Positions 28,457 to 60,799 of a DNA stretch of 64,000 nt are shown in pieces. How positions within the stretch are numbered: the first letter of the stretch is position 1; the number at the start of each line of letters is the position of its first letter. The stretch is from an uncultured bacterium (lineage in GTDB: Bacteria > Bacillota_I > Bacilli_A > Acholeplasmatales > Anaeroplasmataceae): contig CASFCK010000008.1 in the NCBI GenBank assembly GCA_949293265.1, positions 1 through 64,000 of the forward strand, in the 5' to 3' direction. The position numbers were made by a program, and so were the translations under genes. A model generated the notes under the pieces. It ran no database searches, was not told the DNA's origin, and saw only the letters and a list, made by a program, of their open reading frames with translations.

Positions 28457-30928
28457 TTATTCTTTATTTTTATATAGTGAATAACGCCAATTAGTTACAT
28501 ATGTTATTGCATTAGTAGAATTGCTCAATGTTGCTTCATCGATTACTACATACCTATTGCCATTGTAATATGACCAATTTGTAGGATCAGCAAAAATAAT
28601 TTCTTGTAAATTTGGACAATCTTTAAATATGTAGTAAGGAATGGTGGCCGCTGGGTCTTTATATTCCCCATATTCTAGATAATCACAAGCTGCAGGTATA
28701 TAAAATGAGCTTATTGCTGTATTCATAAATGCTCCTGTATAAATAGATTTTAATTGGCTATCTTCTAAAATAATAAACTCTTCTAATGCTACACAATCTT
28801 CAAACGCTCTTTCACCAATACTTAATACTGAATTTGGTAAATTAAATGTTTTAAGTGATTTACAATTATTAAATGCTTCTGTACCTAATGTTTCAAGTAA
28901 ACTATTTTCAGCAATATTAACGGTAGTTAATAAACTTGAATCTTGGAAAGCCCAACTATCAATTTTTATAACCGATGCCGGTATATTTAATATTACCATA
29001 TCAGAAGCTCCAAAGGCTTGATCACCTATAATTTCAATGCCATTTGGAATGATTATAGTTTGAGCATAACTGTAGGCAAAAGCCATTTCTCCTATTTCTT
29101 TTACCTCTGAAGGGATGATTAATTCTTCAATTGCACAGGCAGCAAATGATTCTGGCCAAATTATTTCCGGTCCTTTATTACCTAGATTTAAAGATTTTAA
29201 GTTAGTATTATAATAGAATGCTTCTTCAGCTACATCTACATTACTTGAATCGACAAACACAACTTTCTTTAAACCATATTCTGTACCTATGACTTTAACC
29301 GTATCAATTGAAAATGCCCTATAATCAATTAAAGTAACTGTATCTGGAATGGTTAAAGTATCTACACCGATTAAACCATAGAATGCATATGGTCTTATTT
29401 CTGTTACACCATTAGGTATTACTAAATCTTTTACAAGTTGATTATTAACATATAGATTTTTACAACCATACATCGGATTAGCACTTAAATAATTATAACC
29501 ATAAATTTCAAGTCCACTAAGTAGGGTGTCATAAGTACATATTTCACACCATTTAGCTAAATCTGTTATATAAAGGTTTTCTATAGTTGTTCCTTGAAAT
29601 GCATAATCATCAATTAAAGTTAAACTACTATTATCAATTTTTAAAGTTTTTAAATTTGGACAATTTTTAAAAGCTTCTTTACTAATTGTCCTAATCGTAT
29701 TAGGTAATGTAATACTTTCAATAACATCATTATTCCTAAAATTACTTACTGAAATTACTGTATAGCCATCCTTAGTTGCTGGTATTACTATGTCTTTAAC
29801 ATCTTTAGCATTACCAATTGATACGCTACAAGTCTTGTTACTCTCATTATAACCATATAATAAACCTTCAGTATATGTTTGTTCATAACCACAAACCTCA
29901 CATATTCCATTAACTAGGGTATGTGTAAATTTATCGTCTACATTACCACAAACACTACATTTATGATAATGATATGAATCATCATAAAGCCATTTTTCAT
30001 ATACATGTTCACCTCTAACTTCAACATCAAAACTAAATGATTGATTATCAATTCTATAGGTGTATCTATATAAACCTAGTTGAAGGCAAGTTGGCACTTC
30101 AATAACTTCATAATTATTAGGATAATTAGCTACTTGTAAAGCTGGAATAGATTTTGTTTCTTTAATAGGGCAATAATATTTTGGCCCGTTCCAATTATCT
30201 ATTACTTGTTCACATTCTCTAATTAACGTTCCAGCTTTAGCAGCCGTAGGTTTTACATCTACAACCCATTTGCCAATTTCATGACCAGGAGCTTCAATTG
30301 TTTTAGTCCATGTAAACCAATCTGATGTTCCATCAAAATTTTCAATTTTTAATGTAAAAGTAACCCGTCCATCTTCTGTACAAGTTGCATGAAATGTTTG
30401 TTGAGTATACATTTCTTGAGTATATTCATTCAATTCATCTAAAATTAAAACATCTTCTTTATTACAGTTTTCACAATATCTTACTAATGTTCCTGTACTA
30501 TTTTCAGTTGGATCTAATTTAATTTCATAATCGCCATAAATATGATCTATTTTTTTAATTTCAAGTTGAACTAAGGTTGTCTCGGTATTGCCTAAATTAT
30601 CTGTAAACAATTTATGACATCTACTACATTCATAATGAACTTTATAACCAACTGCATCACATGTAGCTGCAACTTCGTCAACTAACTCTAAATCATGACC
30701 TAAAGCCTTAATTGTTTCAACAACATCAATTTCCACTTTACCCTCATTATCGCTAAACAGTTTTTTACAATCACGACATTCATAATATTCTTCTTGACCA
30801 TCAGCAATACAGGTAGCTGCAACTTCGTCATGATGGATTAAAACATGAACATGTTCATCCTTCTGACATGACACAAAGAAAATCATACATGTTAAAATAA
30901 TTAATATGTATTTTATTTTTATTTTCAT
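28457..30928 (-). CDS. BspA-type leucine-rich-repeat lipoprotein
   Basis: Surface lipoprotein (823 residues). Signal peptide ends FVSC with Cys at 21. Residues about 30-150 hold two or three copies of a Cys-rich unit (EVAATC..G..YYEC..C.KLF.D, then RYCENC), common in BspA-like surface proteins. After about residue 380 come LRR_5 repeats of the kind LTIPDTVTLIDYRAF and LNIPASVIKIDSWAFQDS. Such repeats mediate binding to host or plant polymers. The promoter (TTGACA, 17, TATATT) is followed by AAAGCGCTTT, a palindrome shared with the uxuA promoter, suggesting control by carbon source. Confidence 0.85.
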   Translation of the reverse strand: MKIKIKYILIILTCMIFFVSCQKDEHVHVLIHHDEVAATCIADGQEEYYECRDCKKLFSDNEGKVEIDVVETIKALGHDLELVDEVAATCDAVGYKVHYECSRCHKLFTDNLGNTETTLVQLEIKKIDHIYGDYEIKLDPTENSTGTLVRYCENCNKEDVLILDELNEYTQEMYTQQTFHATCTEDGRVTFTLKIENFDGTSDWFTWTKTIEAPGHEIGKWVVDVKPTAAKAGTLIRECEQVIDNWNGPKYYCPIKETKSIPALQVANYPNNYEVIEVPTCLQLGLYRYTYRIDNQSFSFDVEVRGEHVYEKWLYDDSYHYHKCSVCGNVDDKFTHTLVNGICEVCGYEQTYTEGLLYGYNESNKTCSVSIGNAKDVKDIVIPATKDGYTVISVSNFRNNDVIESITLPNTIRTISKEAFKNCPNLKTLKIDNSSLTLIDDYAFQGTTIENLYITDLAKWCEICTYDTLLSGLEIYGYNYLSANPMYGCKNLYVNNQLVKDLVIPNGVTEIRPYAFYGLIGVDTLTIPDTVTLIDYRAFSIDTVKVIGTEYGLKKVVFVDSSNVDVAEEAFYYNTNLKSLNLGNKGPEIIWPESFAACAIEELIIPSEVKEIGEMAFAYSYAQTIIIPNGIEIIGDQAFGASDMVILNIPASVIKIDSWAFQDSSLLTTVNIAENSLLETLGTEAFNNCKSLKTFNLPNSVLSIGERAFEDCVALEEFIILEDSQLKSIYTGAFMNTAISSFYIPAACDYLEYGEYKDPAATIPYYIFKDCPNLQEIIFADPTNWSYYNGNRYVVIDEATLSNSTNAITYVTNWRYSLYKNKE

Positions 30929-46764: not shown

Positions 46765-49700
46765 TTAATTAATATTAATCTCTTCTAATGCTTTAAGTAA
46801 TGGTTCTTTAAGAACATATTGATGTGTATTATCATATTCTTTTTCTGTGTTTGTGATTTGATATGCACCTTGTTCCCTAACATCAGAAAAATAATTAGAA
46901 TAAGGTCCATCTAAAACTTCACTTACAATAATCGCATCAGATATGATTGAATAAGCAATATTACTATTAATTTTCGTTAATGTATCACTATAATTTATTA
47001 ATTCATTAATATCATTAAAGCTTACACTGATTGTAAATTTTGAAGGTTCACTTTCTTCGCCCATTACAACCTTAATATCAGCTAAGAAGTTAGCTAGTTC
47101 TTCTTTACTAAATAGATTATATTGTAATTCGCTAGCTTCATAATCTTTAGTAATAATACTATAAGTACTAATATTATTATTAATCTCAGCCTCTTTACCA
47201 ACATATGATAAATAAGAAGTATTAAGTTCAGAATCACTAGTTTGAGCAATTGTTTGACTAATTATTTTTTGTGAAATTGTAGCTCTTAATGTATATGATG
47301 TAAACATATTTGGAGTTGGATTATTAGGAACTTTAATTTCTATATCCGTATTTGTTATTTCATTTATTCCTAAAAGACTTAAATTATCAAATATTGCTTG
47401 TAATTCAGTTGTTGTTACTACTAAATCATTATATATATTATGACCTATCGTTTCATTTTCTATAAATGGTAGATATAGAGCTAAATTACTATTTTCATCA
47501 ACGACTTGTTCAAGTAATTTATTAGAGATAGTTAAATAAACTATATTGCTTTCTTCTAAGTCAAGTACTGGATTTTTATTTGTTTCACTTGTAACTAAAT
47601 TACTAAATATTTGATCGATATCAAAATGAATTGTACTACCTTCACCATCTAATTGGAGTTTATCTGAGATATTGAATAAATTCTTTAATTCTTTATTTTT
47701 ATACCAACCACTCGCTTCTAAATCAGATTCGTTTGTTAATTTTCCTTCTGTTATTAATGCTTGTGGTTTAGATAATGCTTCAATATCATAAACATTATTA
47801 ATCATAGTAGCATGTAATACAAAGCTGTATAACATTTCATTTTGTAAAGATGTTTTATATTCTTTTTCTTCAAGTGTATCATTCTTTAAAACTAAAATAT
47901 TAGAAGCCTGTAAATTTTCTGAAATATAAGTCTGATAATTAGTTTTTTCAGTTTCTACACCTAAACCAAGCATCTTAAATACACTTAACATCGTCGTCAT
48001 TTCACTTCTATTACCGCTATCAATAGATGAAATTGTACCATCTTCATTACGATTTAAGTACCACTTTGTGTCATTTGGTATAATTGTGTTATTTTCTTCA
48101 TTATCTTCAAGTTCTAAATTGTCAACAATTTTAACTTTAAGAGTTTCTTCTAAGATATAAGAAGCAAAAATTGTATCAACCCTACCAACATATACGCTAT
48201 CAGCATAAGGATTGTTCGTCTTTTCGCCTAACACTTTATTTACTAAGCTTATTGCATCACTTAACTGATCGGCTAATTCGCTATCTTTACTTAAGCCTAA
48301 ACCATTTTCACCAAGAGCCGCAATCATTCGCTTCCATTCAGGTAATGTAATATAAATGTCATTACCATTAACATCAACTGCGTTAGTAAGATCTTTAATA
48401 TTTACATCACTTACAGATTCCCTAACTTTAGTTGCTAAAGTCAAGCCTAAGACCTTAGATTCATTAATAATCTCAATCTTAGTATTATTTGTTTTAATCT
48501 TTGATTCGTCATTTAAAGCTAGTACTATATTAGCTTCAATATTAATAGTATTTGGTTCTTCTTTCTTAACATCTAACTCTAACTCATTTAAGGCAGCAAA
48601 GATATCTATTATTTCTGATGCAAATGATTCAATTTTATCATAATTAGCTTTAAGTGCAGATTCAGTATTATTACTATATTTACCATCTTCTAATTCTAAT
48701 ACATTATCTTTATTATATTCCCCCGGAATATTAACTGCATTAGTTTGTAATATAGTATTAATTGTAGTAGCTTTTAAAACTACACTTTGAGCTAAAACTT
48801 CTTGTTTATGGGTTTTTTCATTTGCTATAGCTGCAAATTCTTGATCATTGTTATAGTCTTCTTTAATTACTACTAAACTATAAACTGAAACTTTTTCTTC
48901 AACTTTATCTTCAAATCCTTCTTCACCATAAATAGCACCAATTCCAGTCACATAGAATACATCCATAATATGGCTTAATTCATTGCGAGATGTAATAGTT
49001 AGACGGTTAGCTAAATCGGCTTCATTGTTTTCGTCCTTACTAGTTAACCACTTACTGTAATCTTCACCTTCTAAATAATCTGGAATAATGACTGGCATAC
49101 TACCATCTTCACCTAAATTTGAATAAATATTCTTAACTAAAGTATATTCTAGAATATTAGATTTTAATAAAATATCCCGTTTTTCCTCATATTCATTCTC
49201 TTTACCTGCAAATATGTTTTTAACCTTGACATTAATATTTTCTAATTGTGTTAAAACTGAACCATCTTTATCACTAATTCCTAAAGAATATTCTAAACCA
49301 CATATTAATTGATACCATTCTACTTCTTTAATATATTGATCACCACTATCACTATCAGTTTCTAAAGTACTACCATTTTCAGGAACATAAACTAAGCCTT
49401 TCAAATCTTCATTTTCTTTAATTAAATTAGTCATTGTTAAAGCTAATACTTTAGATTCATAAATTATTTCAATATTATAAAGATTTTCTTCTTCATTTTT
49501 ATCATTTAAGATTAAAATTTTATTTGTTAAAGCATCTTGGTCAAAAGTACCTTCAACTAATTCATTTAAATTAATTTCTAAAATATCAATTGAGTTTAAA
49601 ATATTTTCAAGTTCACTGTTTGTTTTCCATTTAGATTTTTCAAAATTATCGCCAAATAGATAATTTGGATCAGTTTCATCATCATATGATACATTATTTG

Positions 49701-52700
49701 TATATAATTTAGGAATATAGATAAATTGATTTGTTTTTCCATCATTAGCTATGTTATAAATAGTATTTATTAATGTAGCATATAAAATATTAGACTTTAA
49801 AACTACATCTTTATTATCAATTACATTATCTAAATTATAACTTAATTCTTTATCTTTAACTTCTAAAACAACATTTGCTGACTTTAAGGTGTTATATAAT
49901 TCTTCTTTATTAATTGCTTCATAATTAGTACTTTCATCATAAACAGATTTAGGAACTATAATTTTTAAATTATCTTGTTCTGGTAGTGTATTAATAACAT
50001 TAGTCATACTATAATGAAGAATTTTTGAAGCAGTCAATTCACAAAAATTCTTATATGAAATCTCAGTAAGAGATATATAATATTCAGGATCATTATCTAT
50101 TATTTTTTGAATGTCTAGTATTTTTTCATTATCTTCATTTTCTAAGGTTACAGCATTTAAAATTTTACTAAATTCACCAGTTTTACCAGTCCACTTTTTA
50201 ATGACTTTTTGATTATTTTCTTCATCATCAGTATATTTTAAATGGCTAGGTATTACTACCATATTAGCTACATCAGGGTTATTTTCAACTGTGTTTACAA
50301 TTAAACTTGATGCAGTAGCTACTAAGATATTAGATGATAGTATTTCATCTTTAACATCTTCTTCAGCTAATATATCTAAAACTGAATTTAGATCAGCACC
50401 TATTTGTTCAAAATCTTCAATTTCATTGTCGATAAATCTTTGAGTTAATGTTGTGGCTGGTTTAATTAAAGCTGTAATAGATTCCTTTTTAATAATATTT
50501 ATGTCATCTATAACTTCATATTCTTCTTGTGGTATTAATACACTAATTTCATTAGTATCTATATTATCTAAAACTAAACTTGTTGTATAATGTAAGAATT
50601 TAGAATTAAAGATGTATTCTAAAACTGATTCATTATTTTCATCATTAATTGGTTTATCTAATATTTTTAAAATATTATTTATTTTAACTAATGGTGTTTC
50701 TTCTTCAGTTTTAATAAATTCATCTAATATACCATTTCTAACTAAAGTTTTTAAACAGTTAGATAAAACTTTAAATTCACCATCTTTATCCTCTTCATTA
50801 CCCCATTTGATATCACGCGGCATTTTAAGATTGGTTACTTCAGTTTGATTTATTCCAGACACTAATGCATTTAATGTAGTGTCATATACTAATTCATACA
50901 TAAAGCCTGATCCTAATAATGTATTAACTGTATCAAAATCACTGATTTTAGTTGTTAAGTCATCATAAGCTTTATCAATTTCAGTAACATTTTCATAATC
51001 TTCTTTTAAAACTATATTAATAGCTTTTAAAAAGTCATTATTAGCCGCACCTAATAATTCTTTTTCAACACTAGTTGAAAGTACTAATATATCATCTGAC
51101 GTTTCAAATATAGCCTTAAAATCATCTAACCATTCAACTTTTATATCTTTAAATGGATTTTCTGAATCTATGTCTAATTCTTGATTTAAATATTCAAAAA
51201 CTGCATCTACACAACGATCTAAAACCCGATTGATCTTATCTTTCTTATTTTTAACTATTAATTCACCATCAACAAATTTATCTTCTTCATTATTTGTAAA
51301 AACAGATAATTGATTTAATGATTCACTGATTGGTGAAACAATATTTAAAGATACGTTTAAAAGACCAACTTTATAACTTGAAGTTTCTTTATTTTCATTT
51401 ACTTCAATATAATCTAGCGTATCAAATATTTCATTAGCACTATCAACGACACCATGTAATAATAACTTACAATCCCCAAATGTCACTAAATCAGCTGGAC
51501 TTATGTAATCAGGATTATTTTTATCTTCAATAAAGATATTACTAACAACATCAATTAATGGATCATCTTTTTCTAAACCCATAGATACTAATAATGTATC
51601 AGCATTAGCAACAACTGTACCAATTGTTACTTTTAGTAAGTTATTAACAACTACTGAGCCTTCATAACTATCAATTAAATATAGTAGGGCTTCTTCAAAT
51701 GTTCTTTGTTCACCAGCATATTCTATTTTAGTTTCACTTTCAAATAAATCAGCAATTGTGTCTAAAACTTCATCTGAATTATTCCCTTTTAAGAAATCAT
51801 TAGCTATAGCCTCTCCACCATATGCATTAAATAAATCAAGCATATCTTGAGCTAAACCAGTAAAAGCCATAATTTCTTCAGTTGCATAAACAACTTCACC
51901 ATTATAATCATATTTTGCTTGTAAAACTGAATTAGCAAAGAACATATAAAAAGGAACATCGTTAATATTTACATCATTAAATAATTTTAATATTCCACTA
52001 TCTCCAAATTCACGAACATAATTATCAATATCATAAATATCGCTTAATGTACTATCCGTAAATTTAGAATCTTTTACTTCTCTGCCCGCTGTAAGAATAT
52101 ATATGCTTGTTGCTAATACGCTAATAGATACAGTAGCTATTATTGCGCCTCTTACAGCACCGACTAAAGATCCTAATAATCTATGTTTAGAATACTTTTT
52201 ACCTCTAGCAAGACATTTCTTTTTATATTTACCTTCTCTAAAAAATGGAAGATATACAATTAGCCATAATAGTATTTTAAATACAATATAAACTAATAAA
52301 CAAACAAGAAATACGACTAATCGTAATCCCCATTCGCCAATAACATTAGCTAATTGATAATATTCAATTGGAACATTTTCTATACCATCAAATGATTCAA
52401 CAATAAGTTTAAATACATAAGTTGAAAGTGAATCAACTAAATTAACTTCAGATGCGGTAATATTAGTGCCAAAAATTGCATTAAAATCATCAGGCATATT
52501 GACACCAAGTTCAGCATCTAAATTTGAGCCAAACATTTGATATAAAAGTTTTCCACCATTAGCAGTTAATATTACAAAGACTATTATAGATAATATTAAT
52601 GCTACTATCATAAGTGTAAATTGGATAATGCCTTTTCTAAAACCTTTCATTAAACCTCTTATTGTCCAAGTGACAATTATAGCAAAAAATAATATCGTTG

Positions 52701-52758
52701 GTATAAGCATAATCCAAGATTTATTGTTTTCTAAAAACGAAACAATTTGTTCTAACAT
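46765..52758 (-). CDS. giant CvpA-like membrane protein with long degenerate repeat region
   Basis: About 1997 residues. The first 225 look like a CvpA (colicin V production) domain: helices at about 12-34, 43-65, 140-170 and 198-222, with TIRGLMKGFRKGIIQ and RLLGSLVGAVRGAIIATVSISV matching family signatures. The rest, about 1770 acidic residues, should face outside. From about residue 700 it carries roughly a dozen degenerate units beginning with a Ser-x-(I/V)-L-x-x-T helix (e.g. SNILEYTLVKNI, SKVLGLTLATKV, SYILEETLKVKI) followed by a P-containing strand. Start: ATG at 52758 with GAGGG upstream; the ATG six codons earlier overlaps that site. CvpA proteins are normally about 160-200 residues. 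Function unknown; envelope scaffold or adhesion is an inference. Confidence 0.7.
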   Translation of the reverse strand: MLEQIVSFLENNKSWIMLIPTILFFAIIVTWTIRGLMKGFRKGIIQFTLMIVALILSIIVFVILTANGGKLLYQMFGSNLDAELGVNMPDDFNAIFGTNITASEVNLVDSLSTYVFKLIVESFDGIENVPIEYYQLANVIGEWGLRLVVFLVCLLVYIVFKILLWLIVYLPFFREGKYKKKCLARGKKYSKHRLLGSLVGAVRGAIIATVSISVLATSIYILTAGREVKDSKFTDSTLSDIYDIDNYVREFGDSGILKLFNDVNINDVPFYMFFANSVLQAKYDYNGEVVYATEEIMAFTGLAQDMLDLFNAYGGEAIANDFLKGNNSDEVLDTIADLFESETKIEYAGEQRTFEEALLYLIDSYEGSVVVNNLLKVTIGTVVANADTLLVSMGLEKDDPLIDVVSNIFIEDKNNPDYISPADLVTFGDCKLLLHGVVDSANEIFDTLDYIEVNENKETSSYKVGLLNVSLNIVSPISESLNQLSVFTNNEEDKFVDGELIVKNKKDKINRVLDRCVDAVFEYLNQELDIDSENPFKDIKVEWLDDFKAIFETSDDILVLSTSVEKELLGAANNDFLKAINIVLKEDYENVTEIDKAYDDLTTKISDFDTVNTLLGSGFMYELVYDTTLNALVSGINQTEVTNLKMPRDIKWGNEEDKDGEFKVLSNCLKTLVRNGILDEFIKTEEETPLVKINNILKILDKPINDENNESVLEYIFNSKFLHYTTSLVLDNIDTNEISVLIPQEEYEVIDDINIIKKESITALIKPATTLTQRFIDNEIEDFEQIGADLNSVLDILAEEDVKDEILSSNILVATASSLIVNTVENNPDVANMVVIPSHLKYTDDEENNQKVIKKWTGKTGEFSKILNAVTLENEDNEKILDIQKIIDNDPEYYISLTEISYKNFCELTASKILHYSMTNVINTLPEQDNLKIIVPKSVYDESTNYEAINKEELYNTLKSANVVLEVKDKELSYNLDNVIDNKDVVLKSNILYATLINTIYNIANDGKTNQFIYIPKLYTNNVSYDDETDPNYLFGDNFEKSKWKTNSELENILNSIDILEINLNELVEGTFDQDALTNKILILNDKNEEENLYNIEIIYESKVLALTMTNLIKENEDLKGLVYVPENGSTLETDSDSGDQYIKEVEWYQLICGLEYSLGISDKDGSVLTQLENINVKVKNIFAGKENEYEEKRDILLKSNILEYTLVKNIYSNLGEDGSMPVIIPDYLEGEDYSKWLTSKDENNEADLANRLTITSRNELSHIMDVFYVTGIGAIYGEEGFEDKVEEKVSVYSLVVIKEDYNNDQEFAAIANEKTHKQEVLAQSVVLKATTINTILQTNAVNIPGEYNKDNVLELEDGKYSNNTESALKANYDKIESFASEIIDIFAALNELELDVKKEEPNTINIEANIVLALNDESKIKTNNTKIEIINESKVLGLTLATKVRESVSDVNIKDLTNAVDVNGNDIYITLPEWKRMIAALGENGLGLSKDSELADQLSDAISLVNKVLGEKTNNPYADSVYVGRVDTIFASYILEETLKVKIVDNLELEDNEENNTIIPNDTKWYLNRNEDGTISSIDSGNRSEMTTMLSVFKMLGLGVETEKTNYQTYISENLQASNILVLKNDTLEEKEYKTSLQNEMLYSFVLHATMINNVYDIEALSKPQALITEGKLTNESDLEASGWYKNKELKNLFNISDKLQLDGEGSTIHFDIDQIFSNLVTSETNKNPVLDLEESNIVYLTISNKLLEQVVDENSNLALYLPFIENETIGHNIYNDLVVTTTELQAIFDNLSLLGINEITNTDIEIKVPNNPTPNMFTSYTLRATISQKIISQTIAQTSDSELNTSYLSYVGKEAEINNNISTYSIITKDYEASELQYNLFSKEELANFLADIKVVMGEESEPSKFTISVSFNDINELINYSDTLTKINSNIAYSIISDAIIVSEVLDGPYSNYFSDVREQGAYQITNTEKEYDNTHQYVLKEPLLKALEEININ

Positions 52759-52880
52759 TTTACCACCCTCAAACATTTATAATATATGTATATTATAAAC
52801 TATTTTTATATGGTACGGTTTATTTTACACATTTTTTTCATATTACTATTATCTACTAATAAAAATAGCATAAATAATCA

Positions 52881-53290: not shown

Positions 53291-55738
53291 CTAATTAATA
53301 AATACAAAGTCATTAGAATACACTTTAAGTCTTTTATAGGCTACATTTTGACAAATGTCATTTTCATTATTAGATACCATAATAAATTTTCTATTACCTA
53401 AGTCTTGCTTGTTTAATAATATAGTAGCTACTGCCGTTGTTCCACTACCAGCAAAGAAATCTAGTACTATATCATCTTTGTTAGTGCAAGCCCTTATTAA
53501 TTCTTCTATTAATTTAATTGGTTTAGGTGTTGAAAAATAGTTTCTAGTTTTGAATATTTTTGCTAGTTCATCTTTTGCTGAAGATGTTGTTCCAAACATT
53601 TTAAATATTTTAGGTATTTCAGTTAATTTATAATTTAATTTAGTGTGTTTTAAATATGGTTGTTCTATTTGATTAAATTTTACAGCTTTACTCATTTTAC
53701 ATATTATTATATATTCATATTTAATTTTCTTTTTATTAGGTTTTAATTCTTTGTTTATATCAAAAAATTTATTAAGTTTTTCCCATTTGTGTATAGAAAT
53801 TAAATCTTTTGAAAAGTAATTAAAACATACCTTTTTAATTGTTTTTAAACTGTTTTTATCAATATTAATTACTAAAAATCCATCACTTTTTAATAGATTT
53901 ATAGCAAGGTTAATTCTATCATCCATAAATTTATAATAATCATTATAATTGTCTTTATATTCAATATAGCTAATATTTGAATTATATGGTGGATCAATTA
54001 AAATAGCTTTAATTTTATTTTGATACGATTCTTGCATAGCTTGTAATGTGTATATATTATTTGACTCTATTAAATAATTAGTTCTTTCTTGTCTTTTATT
54101 TATTTTAGCATTAGTGTTCAATGTAACATTTTTGTCTATATAGCAATCTTTGTAACAAGATATATTTTTTAAATTCTTACAGTGAGCAAACGCCCATTCC
54201 CCGATATATGCAACTAAATCTGAGCAGTATATTTCTTTTAAGCTATTACAATTAGTAAAACAACTTTTTGAAATAATTGAAACATTATGCAAATTAATAC
54301 TTTCTAAATTTTCACACCCACTAAAAGCTCCTCTTTCTAATATAGTGACACTTTCTTTTAATGTCATATATTTACTTACTGCATTAGGAGGGCAACAAAT
54401 TATTTTTGTTTTATTTAAATTATATAAAATATTATTTTCAACATTAAAATTATTAGATTTATTAATAAATTTAATATTATCACATCCAACAAAAGGATTA
54501 TAACCGATCTCTTCTAAAGTGGTTGGTAATACAATTTCTTTTATGCTCTTACAATTCCAAAAAGCATTACGATTAATTCTTTTAACTGGTAGTAATTCTA
54601 ATTTATCTATATTTATTTTAGGTATAGCACCAATTACACTATTTATATATTTATCATAAATTATATTATCTTTAATTAGATAATTATTACTTTCATTATT
54701 AATATCTAAATTAATACAACCAGAAAATGGATTATTTTCTAGTTTTATAACTGTACTTGGTATTTCTAATTTTTCTAAAGATTTGCACAAATAAAATGAA
54801 TGTTTTCCTATTATTTTAGTGCCATATTTAATCTTAAGGTTTTTAATGTTACTATTTATTTTATGATATATTAACCGTTTATAATCTTTTGTATATAATG
54901 TATCATTTTCATAATTAAAATGTTTTGAACTATTAATTAGCTCTAAATTAGGACATCCAGCGAAAGGATTATTACCTATTTGTTCTACATTTTCTGTTAT
55001 TATTATTTTTTTTAAATTAAAACAATTATAGAAGGTGTCACCACCTAAATTAATTAATGAATTTGGTAATATTACTTCTTCTATTACTTGGTTGTCCCAA
55101 AACAAACCTGAAGCTAATGATATTACCCCTTCAGGAATTATTACTATATTTTTTTTGGCTAAATAGCTTGTTACTACACCATTTTTAATTATAAAATCAT
55201 TATCGTTAATTTCTTTAATATTAGAAAAAATATATGTATCTTTTTTTATTTTTCCTTCAAATAATCCATTATCATATATAATGTCATCTAATCCTTTAAT
55301 TTTAGTTCTTCTTTCAATTAAACCACTAACTAACCTTGATTCGTAGTAAATAACTATATATTTATTAGATTTAAATCTTATTATATTATCATTTACTTTA
55401 TTCCATTCAAAGCATTTAATATAAATACCATTTAAATATATATCAAACTCATTATTAAAGTCTAAAATTATCTCATTTGGTGAATATCCCATCATTAATA
55501 ATTTATCTAAGCATTCTAGAATGACAAAAGATTTGTGATTATCTAAAATAAATTTTTCTTTATTTAATATTGTTATTTTATTAAGTAAATTAACTTCTGC
55601 TGTTTGAGCATTTATTAATATATAATTATGTTGATATTTCTTTAGATAAATGTCTTTATCTACTTCTTCATAACCTAATGACCAGTATAGTGCCTCATAT
55701 TTCATATTTCTAGCTAATTTATAATCAATTATTTCCAT
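53291..55738 (-). CDS. nuclease-like / BspA leucine-rich-repeat / DNA adenine methyltransferase fusion
   Basis: One 815-residue frame with three parts. Residues 1-185: a domain with HKSFVILECLDKLLMMGYSPNEIIL and then DIYLNGIYIKCFEW, which resembles the N-terminal nuclease domain of some restriction-modification enzymes (SFVxLECxxRLLxxGY then ADI...IIECK), but with the E-x-K pair changed to K-x-F. Residues about 190-545: LRR_5/BspA repeats (VILPNSLINLGGDTFYNC, LEIPSTVIKLENNPFSGC, IVLPTTLEEIGYNPFVGC). Residues 549-815: beta-class N6-adenine (or N4-cytosine) methyltransferase with DPPY at 582-585 before FAGSGTT at 762-768, as in type III Mod proteins. No Res or endonuclease gene is nearby. There is no signal peptide. 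Start has TTGGAGA upstream and overlaps the kinase gene by 14 bases. The repeat array may act as protein-binding or recognition module. Confidence 0.85.
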   Translation of the reverse strand: MEIIDYKLARNMKYEALYWSLGYEEVDKDIYLKKYQHNYILINAQTAEVNLLNKITILNKEKFILDNHKSFVILECLDKLLMMGYSPNEIILDFNNEFDIYLNGIYIKCFEWNKVNDNIIRFKSNKYIVIYYESRLVSGLIERRTKIKGLDDIIYDNGLFEGKIKKDTYIFSNIKEINDNDFIIKNGVVTSYLAKKNIVIIPEGVISLASGLFWDNQVIEEVILPNSLINLGGDTFYNCFNLKKIIITENVEQIGNNPFAGCPNLELINSSKHFNYENDTLYTKDYKRLIYHKINSNIKNLKIKYGTKIIGKHSFYLCKSLEKLEIPSTVIKLENNPFSGCINLDINNESNNYLIKDNIIYDKYINSVIGAIPKINIDKLELLPVKRINRNAFWNCKSIKEIVLPTTLEEIGYNPFVGCDNIKFINKSNNFNVENNILYNLNKTKIICCPPNAVSKYMTLKESVTILERGAFSGCENLESINLHNVSIISKSCFTNCNSLKEIYCSDLVAYIGEWAFAHCKNLKNISCYKDCYIDKNVTLNTNAKINKRQERTNYLIESNNIYTLQAMQESYQNKIKAILIDPPYNSNISYIEYKDNYNDYYKFMDDRINLAINLLKSDGFLVINIDKNSLKTIKKVCFNYFSKDLISIHKWEKLNKFFDINKELKPNKKKIKYEYIIICKMSKAVKFNQIEQPYLKHTKLNYKLTEIPKIFKMFGTTSSAKDELAKIFKTRNYFSTPKPIKLIEELIRACTNKDDIVLDFFAGSGTTAVATILLNKQDLGNRKFIMVSNNENDICQNVAYKRLKVYSNDFVFIN

Positions 55739-56306
55739 TTAATTCTCCAATTCTTTTTAAGCATTCTTTTACAACTTCATCAACACTTAAATTATTAGTA
55801 TCTATAACAACATAATTAAGTTTCATAATTTCACAAAAATAAATCATTTTTTCATAAGATTTAACTACTAAATATGTTTTCTTTAAATCTTTATCATATT
55901 GGTTTCTTGTTCTTAATCTTTTACATATTGTTATAGCTTTAGCATACAATATGATAGTTAAGTCTGGTTTTCCCATCTTTTCAATTAATAGCTTATATAT
56001 ATCTAAATTATTTTTTGTTCCACTCCAACAATAATTTGAAACTATATGACGATCAGTAATTATATTTTCATTCTTAAATTTTTGATATAAATACATATTT
56101 GAAAGTCCGTAAAACCATGCTGTAAAATTTCTATTTAAAATTTCATTTACTTCCCTTGCTATTTGCCTATAAGCTTCTATCTTATTATCATATGGCAACA
56201 AGCAATGAAGTGGTTTTTCAACAAATTTTAAGTTTAATTTTTCAGCTAATATTTTACAAATTGTAGTTTTACCGACACCATCAAAACCTTCTATAGCTAT
56301 ATGCAT
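55725..56306 (-). CDS. thymidylate kinase-like (deoxy)nucleotide kinase
   Basis: P-loop dNMP kinase of 193 residues. The P-loop is GFDGVGKTT at 7-15, and the DRH motif (usual DRY/DRW) followed by SNYCWSG lies near 84, as in thymidylate kinases, with a basic lid LRTRNQYDKDLK near 130. It could be Tmk or a deoxynucleoside kinase. It starts 3 bases after the nrdD stop and overlaps the LRR-methyltransferase gene, so nucleotide supply and DNA methylation are encoded in one transcript. Confidence 0.85.
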   Translation of the reverse strand: MHIAIEGFDGVGKTTICKILAEKLNLKFVEKPLHCLLPYDNKIEAYRQIAREVNEILNRNFTAWFYGLSNMYLYQKFKNENIITDRHIVSNYCWSGTKNNLDIYKLLIEKMGKPDLTIILYAKAITICKRLRTRNQYDKDLKKTYLVVKSYEKMIYFCEIMKLNYVVIDTNNLSVDEVVKECLKRIGELNGNN

Positions 56307-56309
56307 AAT

Positions 56310-57995
56310 TTAATTTCTCCTTCTATTTTTCTCTTCAGCTTTCTTACCTGGTGTAAACCCATCTAATATTTCTAAATATCCAGAAACTCTTCTTATTCTT
56401 GTAATACTAGTACTATTACAATATGGGCATTTATCAAATATTCCTATATAATCACAATTATTACAGATGTCTTTAGGAAAATTGAAACCTAAATAATGAA
56501 CATTATTAGTTATAGCAATATTTATATATTCTAATAAACCAATAGTATTACCAATAGGTGCTTCACCTAATTCTAAATAAGATATTGAACCTCCATTACA
56601 TAATTCGTGAAATGGCCCTTCATATTGTAATTTTTTATAACCAGGTAAATTGCTATCAACGTCAACATGAAAAGAATTTGTATAATAACCTTTTTTAAAT
56701 ATATTTAAATTACCATAATCTTTTTTATCCAATTCAACAAATCTACCACTGATATATTCACCACTCGTAGCTAGTAATGAAAAGTTTAAATTATAAGTCA
56801 TAATTAAGCAATCACAATAATCTCGCATATGTTTTATGATTCTTATTGCCATCAAATAATTATTAACATTATCATAATACTTTTTATTAGTTAATATTTC
56901 TATTGCTTCACTTAAACCAATAAAGCCAATAGATAAAGTGCCATGTTTATAAATTTCTTTTAATGGTTTATTAAAATCTTCGCACCACAACTTATATTTC
57001 ATATTGTATTCATAGTTATTTTTGTCACTTAAGCACACCTTATCAAATCTGTCTAGTAATATATCTTTAACTATACTAGCTATTTTATCCCATTTACTGA
57101 TGAATATTTCCTCAATAGTTTTACTATCTGATTTTTCTCTAATTGCTTCTAATGCTATTCTAACTAAATTAATAGAAATATTAGCAATATTACCTCTTCC
57201 AATAGCACCAATGTTACCATATATATCATTTACAACTCTTGTGCGGCAACCCATAACTGAAAGTAAATTTGGATCAAAATCTTTATCTTCTTTTGAATCA
57301 CATAATAAATAAGTCGGTATCATCTTTTTAGTTGTACATTTTAATGCTAATTTTAATAAATCATAGTTTTTATCTTTTTCTTCAAAATTTATACCTTTTT
57401 TAACTTTAAAAACTATATTTGGCTTAATTATCTTATCTGAAGTTTCATAAAAACTTTCGAGTAGTATTTTAGATATATACCTAGATAATTCATTATTAGC
57501 TAATCCAATATTTAAAGTTATATAATAACTTGTTTGTCCCATTCTAGTATGATTATTGTTACACCAAATAATAAAATCGTTTAATAAAGCCTTAATTAGC
57601 TTTTTATTATTTAAATGATTAATATTTAATTTTGTAATAATTGAGGCTAATTCATTATCAAAGTTAGCAAAAGCCATACCACCTGATTGTTCATTTCCCA
57701 AATTAATGAGTAGCTCTTTTATGAAACTAAAAATATTAATTAATTTAGACTTTTCATCATAATTACGATAATCATTAAAAGGAAATATTTTAGCTAAATC
57801 TATCGTTAAGCAATTATATGTTAAATCATATGCATCTAAATCATGAATATGAATATAGCCTTTTTGATGAAGACTAGACCATTCTTTAGGAATATTATTT
57901 AATATATCTTCTTTATGCTTTCTCTCACCAATATTATAAATATATCCTACATAGCTTGCTCTATTAGCAGCATTGTCATTTTTCAATTGTTTCAT
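56310..57995 (-). CDS. nrdD: anaerobic ribonucleoside-triphosphate reductase (class III), no ATP-cone
   Basis: Glycyl-radical enzyme that makes deoxyribonucleotides. EGYIHIHDLD-like KGYIHIHDLDAYDL, MGCRTRVV, KHGTLSIGFIGLSEA, NFSLLATSGEYISGRFV and YYTNSFHV are all family signatures. The Zn-ribbon CNNCDYIGIFDKCPYC and the radical loop RRVSGYL (Gly about 539) are intact. At about 561 residues it lacks the N-terminal ATP-cone, like phage-type NrdD. ATG at 57995, about 9 bases after AAAGGA; a TTG six codons upstream is less likely. It overlaps the end of nrdG. Confidence 0.94.
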   Translation of the reverse strand: MKQLKNDNAANRASYVGYIYNIGERKHKEDILNNIPKEWSSLHQKGYIHIHDLDAYDLTYNCLTIDLAKIFPFNDYRNYDEKSKLINIFSFIKELLINLGNEQSGGMAFANFDNELASIITKLNINHLNNKKLIKALLNDFIIWCNNNHTRMGQTSYYITLNIGLANNELSRYISKILLESFYETSDKIIKPNIVFKVKKGINFEEKDKNYDLLKLALKCTTKKMIPTYLLCDSKEDKDFDPNLLSVMGCRTRVVNDIYGNIGAIGRGNIANISINLVRIALEAIREKSDSKTIEEIFISKWDKIASIVKDILLDRFDKVCLSDKNNYEYNMKYKLWCEDFNKPLKEIYKHGTLSIGFIGLSEAIEILTNKKYYDNVNNYLMAIRIIKHMRDYCDCLIMTYNLNFSLLATSGEYISGRFVELDKKDYGNLNIFKKGYYTNSFHVDVDSNLPGYKKLQYEGPFHELCNGGSISYLELGEAPIGNTIGLLEYINIAITNNVHYLGFNFPKDICNNCDYIGIFDKCPYCNSTSITRIRRVSGYLEILDGFTPGKKAEEKNRRRN

Positions 57996-58437
57996 TTTCA
58001 ATAATCCTTTCAAATTTTTGATTCGTTGAACCTACATAAGGCACAACAGATGTTTGAAGTTTTTTAATGAATCTACCTGTTTTTATATAATCTAGGTGTT
58101 TAAATAATTCTTTAGGAACTTCTTCAAATTCATGACCTGTATATAAAGCAATGTTAAAATTAGATAATTTTAATTTTAATAACAATTCTTTAAGTGCAGC
58201 AAATTGCATTAATGGTTCGCCACCTGAAATAGTAATCTTTTTATTTATTACTTTTCTATTTAATTCCTTAACTAAATAATCTATTGATATTTTTTTACCT
58301 TTATTCATCTCCCAAGTATTTTTATTATGACACTCTGGACAATATAAATTACAACCTTGTAGAAAGACGACAGTTCTAATACCTGGTCCATCTACTAAAC
58401 TACGGTTATATAATATTGTATTAATATAAATATCCAT
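57976..58437 (-). CDS. nrdG: anaerobic ribonucleotide reductase activating protein (radical SAM)
   Basis: Radical SAM enzyme that installs the glycyl radical on NrdD. CNLYCPEC (C29, C33, C36 by this start) binds the 4Fe-4S cluster in the CxxxCxxC spacing, with ISGGEPL near 73 for SAM. Length 153 is normal. The ATG at 58437 has GAGG 9 bases upstream, within the end of the preceding gene. Confidence 0.95.
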   Translation of the reverse strand: MDIYINTILYNRSLVDGPGIRTVVFLQGCNLYCPECHNKNTWEMNKGKKISIDYLVKELNRKVINKKITISGGEPLMQFAALKELLLKLKLSNFNIALYTGHEFEEVPKELFKHLDYIKTGRFIKKLQTSVVPYVGSTNQKFERIIENETIEK

Positions 58438-58840
58438 ATTCTTTATCCTCAAATTTCTTAATTTCTTTTAGAACTTTTATTTTATAAATATATTTAGCTT
58501 TAACAATATTTCTACTTTCTTTTAAATCATTTAAAAAGAGTTCTTCTTTAATTATTCTATCATTGAAATTTTTTATTTTTCTTTGTTGCTGAATGTTTTT
58601 GCACTTAAGATATTCATCATTTAAATTGATTTTCTTAAGTTCTAAATAATCTATATATGGTATTTCAATACAACTTAATATAGCATCTTTATGATTATGT
58701 TTAACTCTTGGGAAATTTCTAACCAGTTTAGCAGCCTCTTTACCATCAATGGCTGTAACAGCAAAAGCAATTGGTATGTAATTATTTCTGCCAACATGAC
58801 CACACTTGGCAACTACTTTATAATATCTTTTTTCTAACAT
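58421..58840 (-). CDS. conserved protein of unknown function upstream of nrdG
   Basis: 139 residues: a compact N-terminal part with CGHVGRNNYIPIAFAVTAIDGKEAAKLVRNFPRVKHNHKDAI (about 12-53), which looks highly conserved, and a long basic helical C-terminus (Lys/Glu-rich, about 75-139). I do not know a function. AAGGAGG precedes the ATG. It leads the operon nrdG-nrdD-kinase-methyltransferase, whose next start lies inside its 3' end. Confidence 0.6.
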   Translation of the reverse strand: MLEKRYYKVVAKCGHVGRNNYIPIAFAVTAIDGKEAAKLVRNFPRVKHNHKDAILSCIEIPYIDYLELKKINLNDEYLKCKNIQQQRKIKNFNDRIIKEELFLNDLKESRNIVKAKYIYKIKVLKEIKKFEDKEYGYLY

Positions 58841-58925: not shown

Positions 58926-58955
58926 CAAAAAAAGGAGCTATTTTAAAAGCTCCAT
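58926..58955 (-). terminator. terminator overlapping the HTH gene end
   Basis: GGAGCT / AGCTCC stem with a T-run on the minus strand. The last codons of the HTH protein (MELLK, stop) form one arm. Confidence 0.85.
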
Positions 58956-59156
58956 AAAACTAACTTCTAATACTCTAGCAATCTCAGAAATAGTTTTTAA
59001 ACTATTAATGCCATTTTTAATCCATTTACGAACAGTCGTAGGATCTACAAACATACCATCGCAAGCAAACTTTTCTTGAGTTTTAAATCTAGATTCTCTT
59101 ATTAGTTTTTTTAAATTAATACCTACTCTTTTTTCAATAGATATTTCATTTGTCAT
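58938..59156 (-). CDS. small XRE-like helix-turn-helix protein
   Basis: 72-residue DNA-binding protein. A helix-turn-helix is seen in TQEKFACDGMFVDPTTVRKWIKNGINSLKTISEIARVLEVS, with recognition helix about residues 37-46. AAGGAGG precedes the ATG. It is a single-gene unit with its own terminator, between the nrd/methyltransferase operon and the DUF4238 cassette, and could regulate either. Confidence 0.75.
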   Translation of the reverse strand: MTNEISIEKRVGINLKKLIRESRFKTQEKFACDGMFVDPTTVRKWIKNGINSLKTISEIARVLEVSFMELLK

Positions 59157-59230: not shown

Positions 59231-59272
59231 AAAAAAAACCTTAGACAAGTTATTTAAACTTCTTCTAAGGTC
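59231..59272 (-). terminator. terminator after the DUF4238 cassette
   Basis: ACCTTAGA...AAGTT / AACTT...TCTAAGGT stem followed by eight T on the minus strand, overlapping the 3' end of the membrane-protein gene. Confidence 0.85.
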
Positions 59273-59991
59273 CAACCAGTATCATTATGACTTAATTTCA
59301 AATTGTTATATATAAATATAAATGTTCCCCAACTAGATTTAAAATTCTTTTTAATTTCTAGATAAATAAATAGTAAAAAGGAATTTAAAAATAAAGGGAT
59401 CAACGTATATATCGGTGCATATACATTCTTTTTAGCAAATATGTTATAAAATATGCAAACAAAAAAAATAATCAAATTTAACATATTTGTTAAATGTACA
59501 TTTTTTAAAATAGAAAATTTGGCAATAGATTTTAATTTTCCCTCATACACATAATATTTAAAATTCTTATAATTCCATACTGAATTAGTTTTAAAAACAT
59601 TCTTTCTTTTAGCAATTTTATAAGTTAACATTGACGTAAACATTAATATTATTGCATCAAATACAACATAAAGTATAACTAAATCTAAGTAAATAGAAAA
59701 TAATACTATGGCTGCAATCAGTGACAATAATATGATAATTATCATAATCATAAGATTATTTATATTTTTCTTTTTTCTAGCATTAAAATCAATAATGTCA
59801 GGTTCAACTACATAACCAACGCCTTTATTAATAATATCATCTATATTTATTTTATCTAATGATAATTTTGTTTTATTTAGTATTGGTTGACCTAAATATA
59901 AATCTTTACCTTCATATTGATTTGTTCCATTTGTAACTATTGTCTCAATATTTTTTAAATATTCAACTACACTTTTCTCCTTATTTGTCAT
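59254..59991 (-). CDS. four-helix membrane protein of the DUF4238 cassette
   Basis: 245 residues, with helices at about 76-98, 103-124, 165-185 and 193-213, arranged as two hairpins with a short intervening loop, and hydrophilic ends. No family was recognised. Its start lies 11 bases inside the coiled-coil protein gene, so it is translated with it. As the last gene of a coupled cassette with two soluble proteins, it is a candidate membrane effector or anchor; this is inference. Confidence 0.6.
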   Translation of the reverse strand: MTNKEKSVVEYLKNIETIVTNGTNQYEGKDLYLGQPILNKTKLSLDKINIDDIINKGVGYVVEPDIIDFNARKKKNINNLMIMIIIILLSLIAAIVLFSIYLDLVILYVVFDAIILMFTSMLTYKIAKRKNVFKTNSVWNYKNFKYYVYEGKLKSIAKFSILKNVHLTNMLNLIIFFVCIFYNIFAKKNVYAPIYTLIPLFLNSFLLFIYLEIKKNFKSSWGTFIFIYNNLKLSHNDTGWTLEEV

Positions 59992-60799
59992 TATTAATTA
60001 GCCCTTCTATTCTTTCTTTTTCTTCTTTAATAATATCATCAGTTAAATCTTTACCATTAATCATTTTAGCAACGATCCTTGTTGCTGCCCTACTTTCAAT
60101 TAAATATTCTTTCATATTAGCTAACATATCTAATGTTTTATTTAATTTATTTTCCATAGAATTTAATTTAATATCCTTCAGAATTTCTATTTGTTCTTTC
60201 AAATAATTATTTTCTAAATCTAAAGTTTGTAATTTTGAATTCTTATTTTTAATAATTTGAGCATATCTGACTAAATCTACTTCACTCAGTTTTCGTTGTT
60301 CATATGATTCTTTAAGTTCGTCTGTCAATTTTATAACTTCATTTTTTAAAGCCTTATTAACTCGTTCATTTTCTCCAAAAATATCATTAAAATAATTACT
60401 ATCAAATTTTATTTCATCATATTTTTTATAAGATAAGTATGAATTAATTAATATGAAATATATGCGTAAATGGTTTATTATAGTTTCTACCTCTAAGTTT
60501 TTTTCCTTTTTATGCTTATGATCATTGCATTTTTTAATGTAATCTATTAATTTTTCATATGTATGATCATCTAATTTTAACTGATTTTTGAAAAATATTT
60601 TGATTTTATCGCCTCTAATAATATAACCACATGTTTTAGATTTATCATATTGAATATTAAGATCGTCTAAAATGTATTTAATAGTTCCTTCAAGCAAATC
60701 TAAATAAGAATCATAATACGAATTACTTTTTGACTTAATATTAGTTTCCATAGTTAAGAATCTCGAATTGATAGTTTCATTAATAATAAAATTTTCCAT
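59981..60799 (-). CDS. coiled-coil protein of the DUF4238 cassette
   Basis: 272 residues, all helical. Residues 25-125 have a DUF4145/HEPN-like look (a helix with YLDLLEGTIKYILDDL, then YEKLIDYIKKCNDHKHKKEKNLEVETIINHLR). Residues about 145-225 predict a coiled coil (heptads through NEVIKLTDELKESYEQRK and LDLENNYLKEQIEILKD). The HEPN resemblance is weak, as no clean RxxxxH is present. ATG follows GGTGATAAG and overlaps the stop of the DUF4238 gene by one base. Confidence 0.55.
   Translation of the reverse strand: MENFIINETINSRFLTMETNIKSKSNSYYDSYLDLLEGTIKYILDDLNIQYDKSKTCGYIIRGDKIKIFFKNQLKLDDHTYEKLIDYIKKCNDHKHKKEKNLEVETIINHLRIYFILINSYLSYKKYDEIKFDSNYFNDIFGENERVNKALKNEVIKLTDELKESYEQRKLSEVDLVRYAQIIKNKNSKLQTLDLENNYLKEQIEILKDIKLNSMENKLNKTLDMLANMKEYLIESRAATRIVAKMINGKDLTDDIIKEEKERIEGLINNDK

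Follow-up and report, generated by a model that had tools for sequence, protein, structure and literature searches.

The stretch of DNA analysed here (the window, 64,000 nucleotides of the 68,675-bp contig C8 in a 1.59-Mb genome assembly) encodes a single protein in which an N-terminal domain (N-domain) and BspA-type leucine-rich repeats (LRRs) are joined to a DNA methyltransferase, and this fused gene is the last of an operon that also encodes a class III ribonucleotide reductase (RNR) and a nucleotide kinase. The gene set forms a cassette that moves horizontally, across phyla, and occupies different chromosomal sites. We see about an even chance that it is a defence-type system in which the fused gene is the modification component and the N-domain/LRR part serves to target or assemble the methyltransferase. 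That the cassette represents an undescribed system, combining an unregulated anaerobic RNR, a kinase, and a methyltransferase dependent on an intracellular BspA-type LRR protein for target choice or assembly, is a tentative claim that we place just short of an even chance.

The open reading frame of the fused gene starts with ATG and runs without internal stop. It has the following parts:

53291..55738, minus strand: N-domain/LRR/methyltransferase fusion protein, 815 aa (ORF, Pfam, AlphaFold2)
55223..55738, minus strand: N-terminal domain, residues 1-172, kept in all relatives, with a Foldseek match to the BsaXI type IIB restriction-modification (RM) subunit
54119..55222, minus strand: BspA-type LRR_5 region, residues 173-540 (Pfam; Foldseek 4gt6, 4h09)
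53291..54118, minus strand: methyltransferase core, residues 541-815, type III Mod-like (Pfam, alignment, Foldseek)
53984..53995, minus strand: catalytic motif DPPY, residues 582-585, read from the sequence and kept by at least 93% of 37 relatives
53435..53455, minus strand: SAM-binding motif FAGSGTT, residues 762-768, read from the sequence; at least 93% of 37 relatives keep FAGSGT

The initial annotation had described LRRs and a methyltransferase in a single open frame, with DPPY preceding FAGSGTT, and both points hold, as Pfam finds LRR_5 (E 1.2e-42) and N6_N4_Mtase (E 4.3e-36) in the intact frame and both motifs are complete. Its estimate of about 350 repeat residues is corrected to ~365, and the repeats are preceded by a separate conserved domain of ~172 residues, which has no Pfam family. 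The structure prediction that it had proposed for the full protein gave a confident AlphaFold2 fold (pLDDT 90.2, pTM 0.84). By eye, neither a signal peptide (the protein begins MEIIDYKLARNMKYEALYW) nor a cell-wall anchor is seen in the sequence, in contrast to an ordinary LRR protein elsewhere in the window (28457-30928), whose start (MKIKIKYILIILTCMIFFVSC) resembles a lipoprotein signal.

Scanned with an N-domain/LRR alignment, 84,980 species genomes yielded ~44 true homologous loci, and ~45 were found in all, distributed over the Bacilli/Mollicutes, Clostridia, Treponema and other Spirochaetales, Bacteroidales, and some metagenome-assembled genomes (MAGs) labelled archaeal. Many of the relatives are MAGs, and binning errors may explain the archaeal placements. 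Brachyspira catarrhinii Z12, a carrier of the split form, is an isolate. About 25 loci carry the fused form, 14 carry two adjacent genes, and the remainder are cut by contig ends. The family-wide search recovered full-length relatives at 66% and 55% identity and one split over two contigs. Since independent assemblies contain this in-frame fusion as well, at 46-66% identity, a chimeric assembly join is ruled out. Recurrence of the fusion had been suggested as a check and is thus borne out, and homologues that always split into two genes, named earlier as grounds for rejection, were not what the scan returned, although a minority of the relatives are indeed split. A maximum-likelihood tree built from the N-domain/LRR part separates the fused (n = 23) from the split forms (n = 12) at a single branch (support 100/100), so that a single fusion or a single fission event appears to account for both. 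The NrdD tree requires three changes between fused and split forms, indicating that the genes have sometimes been exchanged.

The operon h139-nrdG-nrdD-tmk-LRR/methyltransferase is tight, neighbouring genes being spaced by -38 to +3 bp, and the last 14 bp of the kinase gene are shared with the start of the fused gene. Upstream of the fused gene, the window encodes:

55725..56306, minus strand: thymidylate-kinase-like nucleotide kinase, 193 aa (Pfam Thymidylate_kin E 5.5e-18)
56310..58013, minus strand: NrdD, class III RNR without ATP-cone (Pfam, alignments)
57976..58452, minus strand: NrdG, radical-SAM activase (Pfam Fer4_12 E 3.7e-27; phrog_626)
58421..58840, minus strand: h139, small protein without assigned role, directly upstream of nrdG in ~20 relatives
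58938..59156, minus strand: small protein of 72 aa (cluster 7), by eye like an XRE-type helix-turn-helix, in 15 loci; a relative searched against Pfam gave no match
59254..59991, minus strand: h245, accessory membrane protein, common to two relatives
59981..60799, minus strand: h272, accessory protein without assigned role, in 16 loci including the phage copy
60799..61983, minus strand: DUF4238 accessory protein (Pfam E 7.3e-21), in 12 loci

No endonuclease gene adjoins the fused gene at this locus, as had been noted before, but the methyltransferase is not the orphan enzyme that this seemed to imply: it belongs to a cassette with a class III RNR and a nucleotide kinase. nrdD is present in all 41 loci in which the contig extends upstream, as are nrdG and the kinase gene where the sequence allows, and in every locus without nrdD the contig begins with the LRR gene or a short way ahead of it. 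A metallophosphoesterase (Pfam Metallophos) is encoded in 25 loci, mostly between nrdD and the kinase gene. Among 395 genomes of the class, eight contain cassette NrdD (E <= 1e-150), and these eight are also the ones with the N-domain/LRR protein (E <= 1e-50), the two never being met apart. Close methyltransferase matches occur in seven of these eight carriers. As linked genes are inherited together, the eight co-occurrences are not independent events, and part of the strict linkage reflects shared descent. In eight loci (L022, L024, L034, L035, L038, L042, L043, and L059), a DEDDh exonuclease-like gene comes next after the fused gene and is a possible optional component. In one MAG locus (L041), nrdD is broken into three frames, through decay or an assembly error, and nrdG was not found.

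The eighth carrier, a genome of the same order (G108; L127/L128, G108:C3:15000-42000), has an operon of a HAD-NrdG fusion, NrdD, kinase, and N-domain/LRR protein, in which the N-domain/LRR gene is not immediately followed by a methyltransferase gene, and thus a methyltransferase is not always required at this position. The proteins encoded downstream are a glycosyltransferase-Sel1-LRR_5-metallophosphoesterase (1085 aa), an AAA-LRR_5 protein (670 aa), and an LRR_5-h139 protein (271 aa). This arrangement places h139 and the phosphoesterase in the cassette gene set, and the attachment of LRR modules to several cassette parts suggests that the LRRs serve as assembly modules.

Nine cassette methyltransferases were aligned with the Mod proteins of P1, an Erysipelothrix phage, an Enterococcus plasmid, and a faecal phage. 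In contrast to these four Mods, all nine lack the ~110-aa insert between motifs VIII and X that forms the target recognition domain (TRD), and they also lack the N- and C-terminal regions of Mod. The core, nearest to the type III Mod Mbo45V in Foldseek, shares with Mbo45V, EcoP15I, and P1 Mod the motif order, the motif X region (F-TPKP), DPPY, and FxGxG, the cassette enzyme further differing in the LRRs placed in front. The Res helicase-nuclease of type III RM systems is absent from the window operon and is not a recurrent neighbour of cassette loci. Because the TRD insert is absent, the methyltransferase probably needs help in finding its substrate, and the N-domain/LRR part, being fused or adjacent to it, would be the natural helper. 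The earlier proposal that the repeats replace the usual TRD is only partly upheld: the TRD insert is missing, but the idea that the repeats stand in for it finds no support, as they are N-terminal to the enzyme and form a separate gene in 14 loci.

TRDs are normally the variable part of such enzymes. The mean pairwise identity of the LRR region is 52% vs. 53% for the methyltransferase core, and this equal conservation rules out the LRRs as a fast-evolving, variable recognition domain. With a net charge close to zero, the repeats give no hint of direct DNA binding, and an electrostatic DNA clamp is left unsupported. Judged from these sequence properties, the combination of core-like conservation and near-neutral charge favours an unchanging partner or ligand over a variable DNA motif. 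The repeats belong to the same repeat family and fold as BspA-type LRR proteins (PDB 4gt6, 4h09, 4fs7). Known proteins of this type are mostly found at the cell surface, whereas the cassette protein lacks an obvious signal peptide, has a new N-domain, and is fused or adjacent to a methyltransferase.

For the N-domain, no convincing family was found in Pfam, and its profile matched no PDB sequence even at E 10. Nine positions are invariant in 36 members (K13, Y14, K33, E75, W112, Y132, S134, L136, and G139). With the AlphaFold2 model of the domain (pLDDT 86.7, pTM 0.84), Foldseek matched only the BsaXI RM structures (8w0p, 8w2q, and 8w2p; E 5e-4 to 3e-3, probability 1.00). In BsaXI, residues 1-192 form the nuclease domain, with the catalytic residues E73, D90, E105, and K107 (PMC11997821). 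This domain is likely the part matched, since the rest of BsaXI RM consists of a helical connector, methyltransferase, knob, and paddle, and a match to the methyltransferase would have brought in other methyltransferases. Such a counterpart would fit an RM-like enzyme of type IIB or IIG, with the N-domain as a working PD-(D/E)xK nuclease, the LRRs as recognition module, and the methyltransferase for self-protection. We consider this improbable, as no D...(D/E)xK set is invariant in the N-domain, the most plausible candidate sites differ between relatives, with N, Q, or A in the window protein, and the assignment to the nuclease domain comes from a Foldseek result without residue mapping. An active nuclease is accordingly judged unlikely, and because the cassette family keeps no acid/lysine set of this kind, the N-domain probably descends from a restriction nuclease domain but no longer cleaves. 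Apart from the shared N-domain fold, the cassette differs from the BsaXI type IIB RM subunit with its N-terminal endonuclease domain in the lack of conserved catalytic residues, a methyltransferase of another class, and the lack of an S subunit.

Cassette NrdD aligns with T4 NrdD and has both active-site cysteines (Cys68 and Cys256), Asn275, the radical glycine (Gly545), and the four zinc cysteines, and at least 95% of 38 relatives retain these residues. The ATP-cone, the dATP off-switch of class III enzymes, is usual in class III RNRs though not strictly defining. It is absent from cassette NrdD, which starts where the cone would be expected to end, so that the enzyme is probably unregulated. 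The two other NrdDs of the host (796 and 711 aa; contigs C6 and C14, L097 and L099) both have an ATP-cone, and each shares 23% identity with cassette NrdD. Thus, the cassette enzymes have the full catalytic set and the activase of class III RNR NrdD/NrdG, but differ in the missing cone, the low identity to the host NrdDs, and the linkage to the LRR protein and methyltransferase.

Evidence for mobility comes from the surroundings of the cassette. A genome of the same genus (G034) shares with the window the block from the DUF4238 gene to the fused gene, while the flanks differ, and the left-flank gene of the window is found without the cassette upstream in three genomes (G031, G034, and G035). 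Serine recombinases adjoin several copies, including the one in phage record NatCom_17901 (PV036423), which has the split form at 41% identity, and a truncated phage integrase lies past the cassette at the right end of the contig. Neighbours matching defence models include SoFic, AriA, PDC-S01, a type I REase-like protein, and a type II methyltransferase, in a PADLOC tally that has no background control and is only suggestive. Pfam places Abi_2-like and DUF4238 proteins among the neighbours as well.

A role in the conflict between hosts and mobile DNA is the most likely reading. The proposed cassette has the order nrdG, nrdD, optional metallophosphoesterase, TMK-like kinase, and N-domain/LRR plus methyltransferase parts. 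Its methyltransferase would be unable to select a substrate unaided. The N-domain/LRR part, joined to it in one clade and a separate subunit in the other, would bring the enzyme to its substrate or hold it together with its partners. NrdD, NrdG, and the kinase would supply deoxynucleotides beyond the point at which a dATP-sensing ATP-cone shuts off synthesis. Together, they would most likely serve in defence or element protection by coupling DNA modification with an altered nucleotide supply or product. The main rival reading is a dedicated dNTP supply for a mobile element, in which the cassette would feed the replication of phages or integrative elements in anaerobes and the methyltransferase would shield element DNA from host restriction. 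Phages commonly carry nrdD/nrdG, kinases, phosphoesterases, and methyltransferases as accessory genes, cassette NrdD lacks feedback control, and the copy beside serine recombinases in NatCom_17901 also fits plain phage nucleotide metabolism. Yet at the thresholds used cassette NrdD was found in only one of 50,697 phage records and in none of the plasmid records searched, two IMG/VR scans, one based on the single protein and one on the N-domain/LRR alignment, found none (these patterns being insensitive), and most copies lie on bacterial contigs without sign of a phage replication module. As a plain dNTP booster would also leave the strictly kept N-domain/LRR protein unexplained, we regard this reading as unlikely, though the one to be weighed most seriously.

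A nucleotide-based antiviral system, in which the radical enzymes and kinase would make a modified or imbalanced nucleotide in the manner of viperin and the LRR protein would sense infection, is of similarly low probability to the RM-like enzyme. The radical-SAM activase and the kinase, which weakly matches the PADLOC models of the viperin-associated kinase VakA and the PDC-M51B kinase, recall the radical chemistry and nucleotide kinase of the viperin-VakA defence, but the cassette has RNR chemistry and no viperin. NrdD keeps every class III catalytic residue checked and therefore most likely makes ordinary dNTPs, and the conservation of the LRRs is unlike that of a fast-evolving sensor.

Regarding known systems, PADLOC 2023 returned no known anti-phage gene set, giving family matches for the methyltransferase and kinase and a weak pVip match for NrdG only, and PADLOC, PHROGs, NCBIfam, and Pfam name the cassette parts but do not record the gene set. 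Literature searches, which covered non-subscription sources, found no description of the cassette or the fusion, in line with the earlier statement that no family of LRR-methyltransferase architecture has been described, which also holds for the protein libraries searched. The novelty of the cassette thus rests on the absence of any match and the strict conservation of the gene set, while its function is what we infer. If correct, a multi-gene system conserved in gut anaerobes of several phyla, and unrecorded as a unit in the sources searched, would link DNA modification to deoxynucleotide synthesis and give BspA-type repeats an intracellular role, and how a methyltransferase without TRD finds its target would become testable.

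Beyond the cassette, at the right end of contig C8 and mostly past the window, the genes at 63099-68388 (L016:5099-10388) encode an AAA_21 (AbiEii-like) protein, DUF4417, a truncated phage integrase, and HATPase_c_4, and are the remains of an island. On the other side, the window contains an ORF of 2003 aa (46765-52776) that has a membrane-like N-terminus and matches nothing in PHROGs or NCBIfam; its N-terminal part is kept in seven of the eight genomes of the genus.
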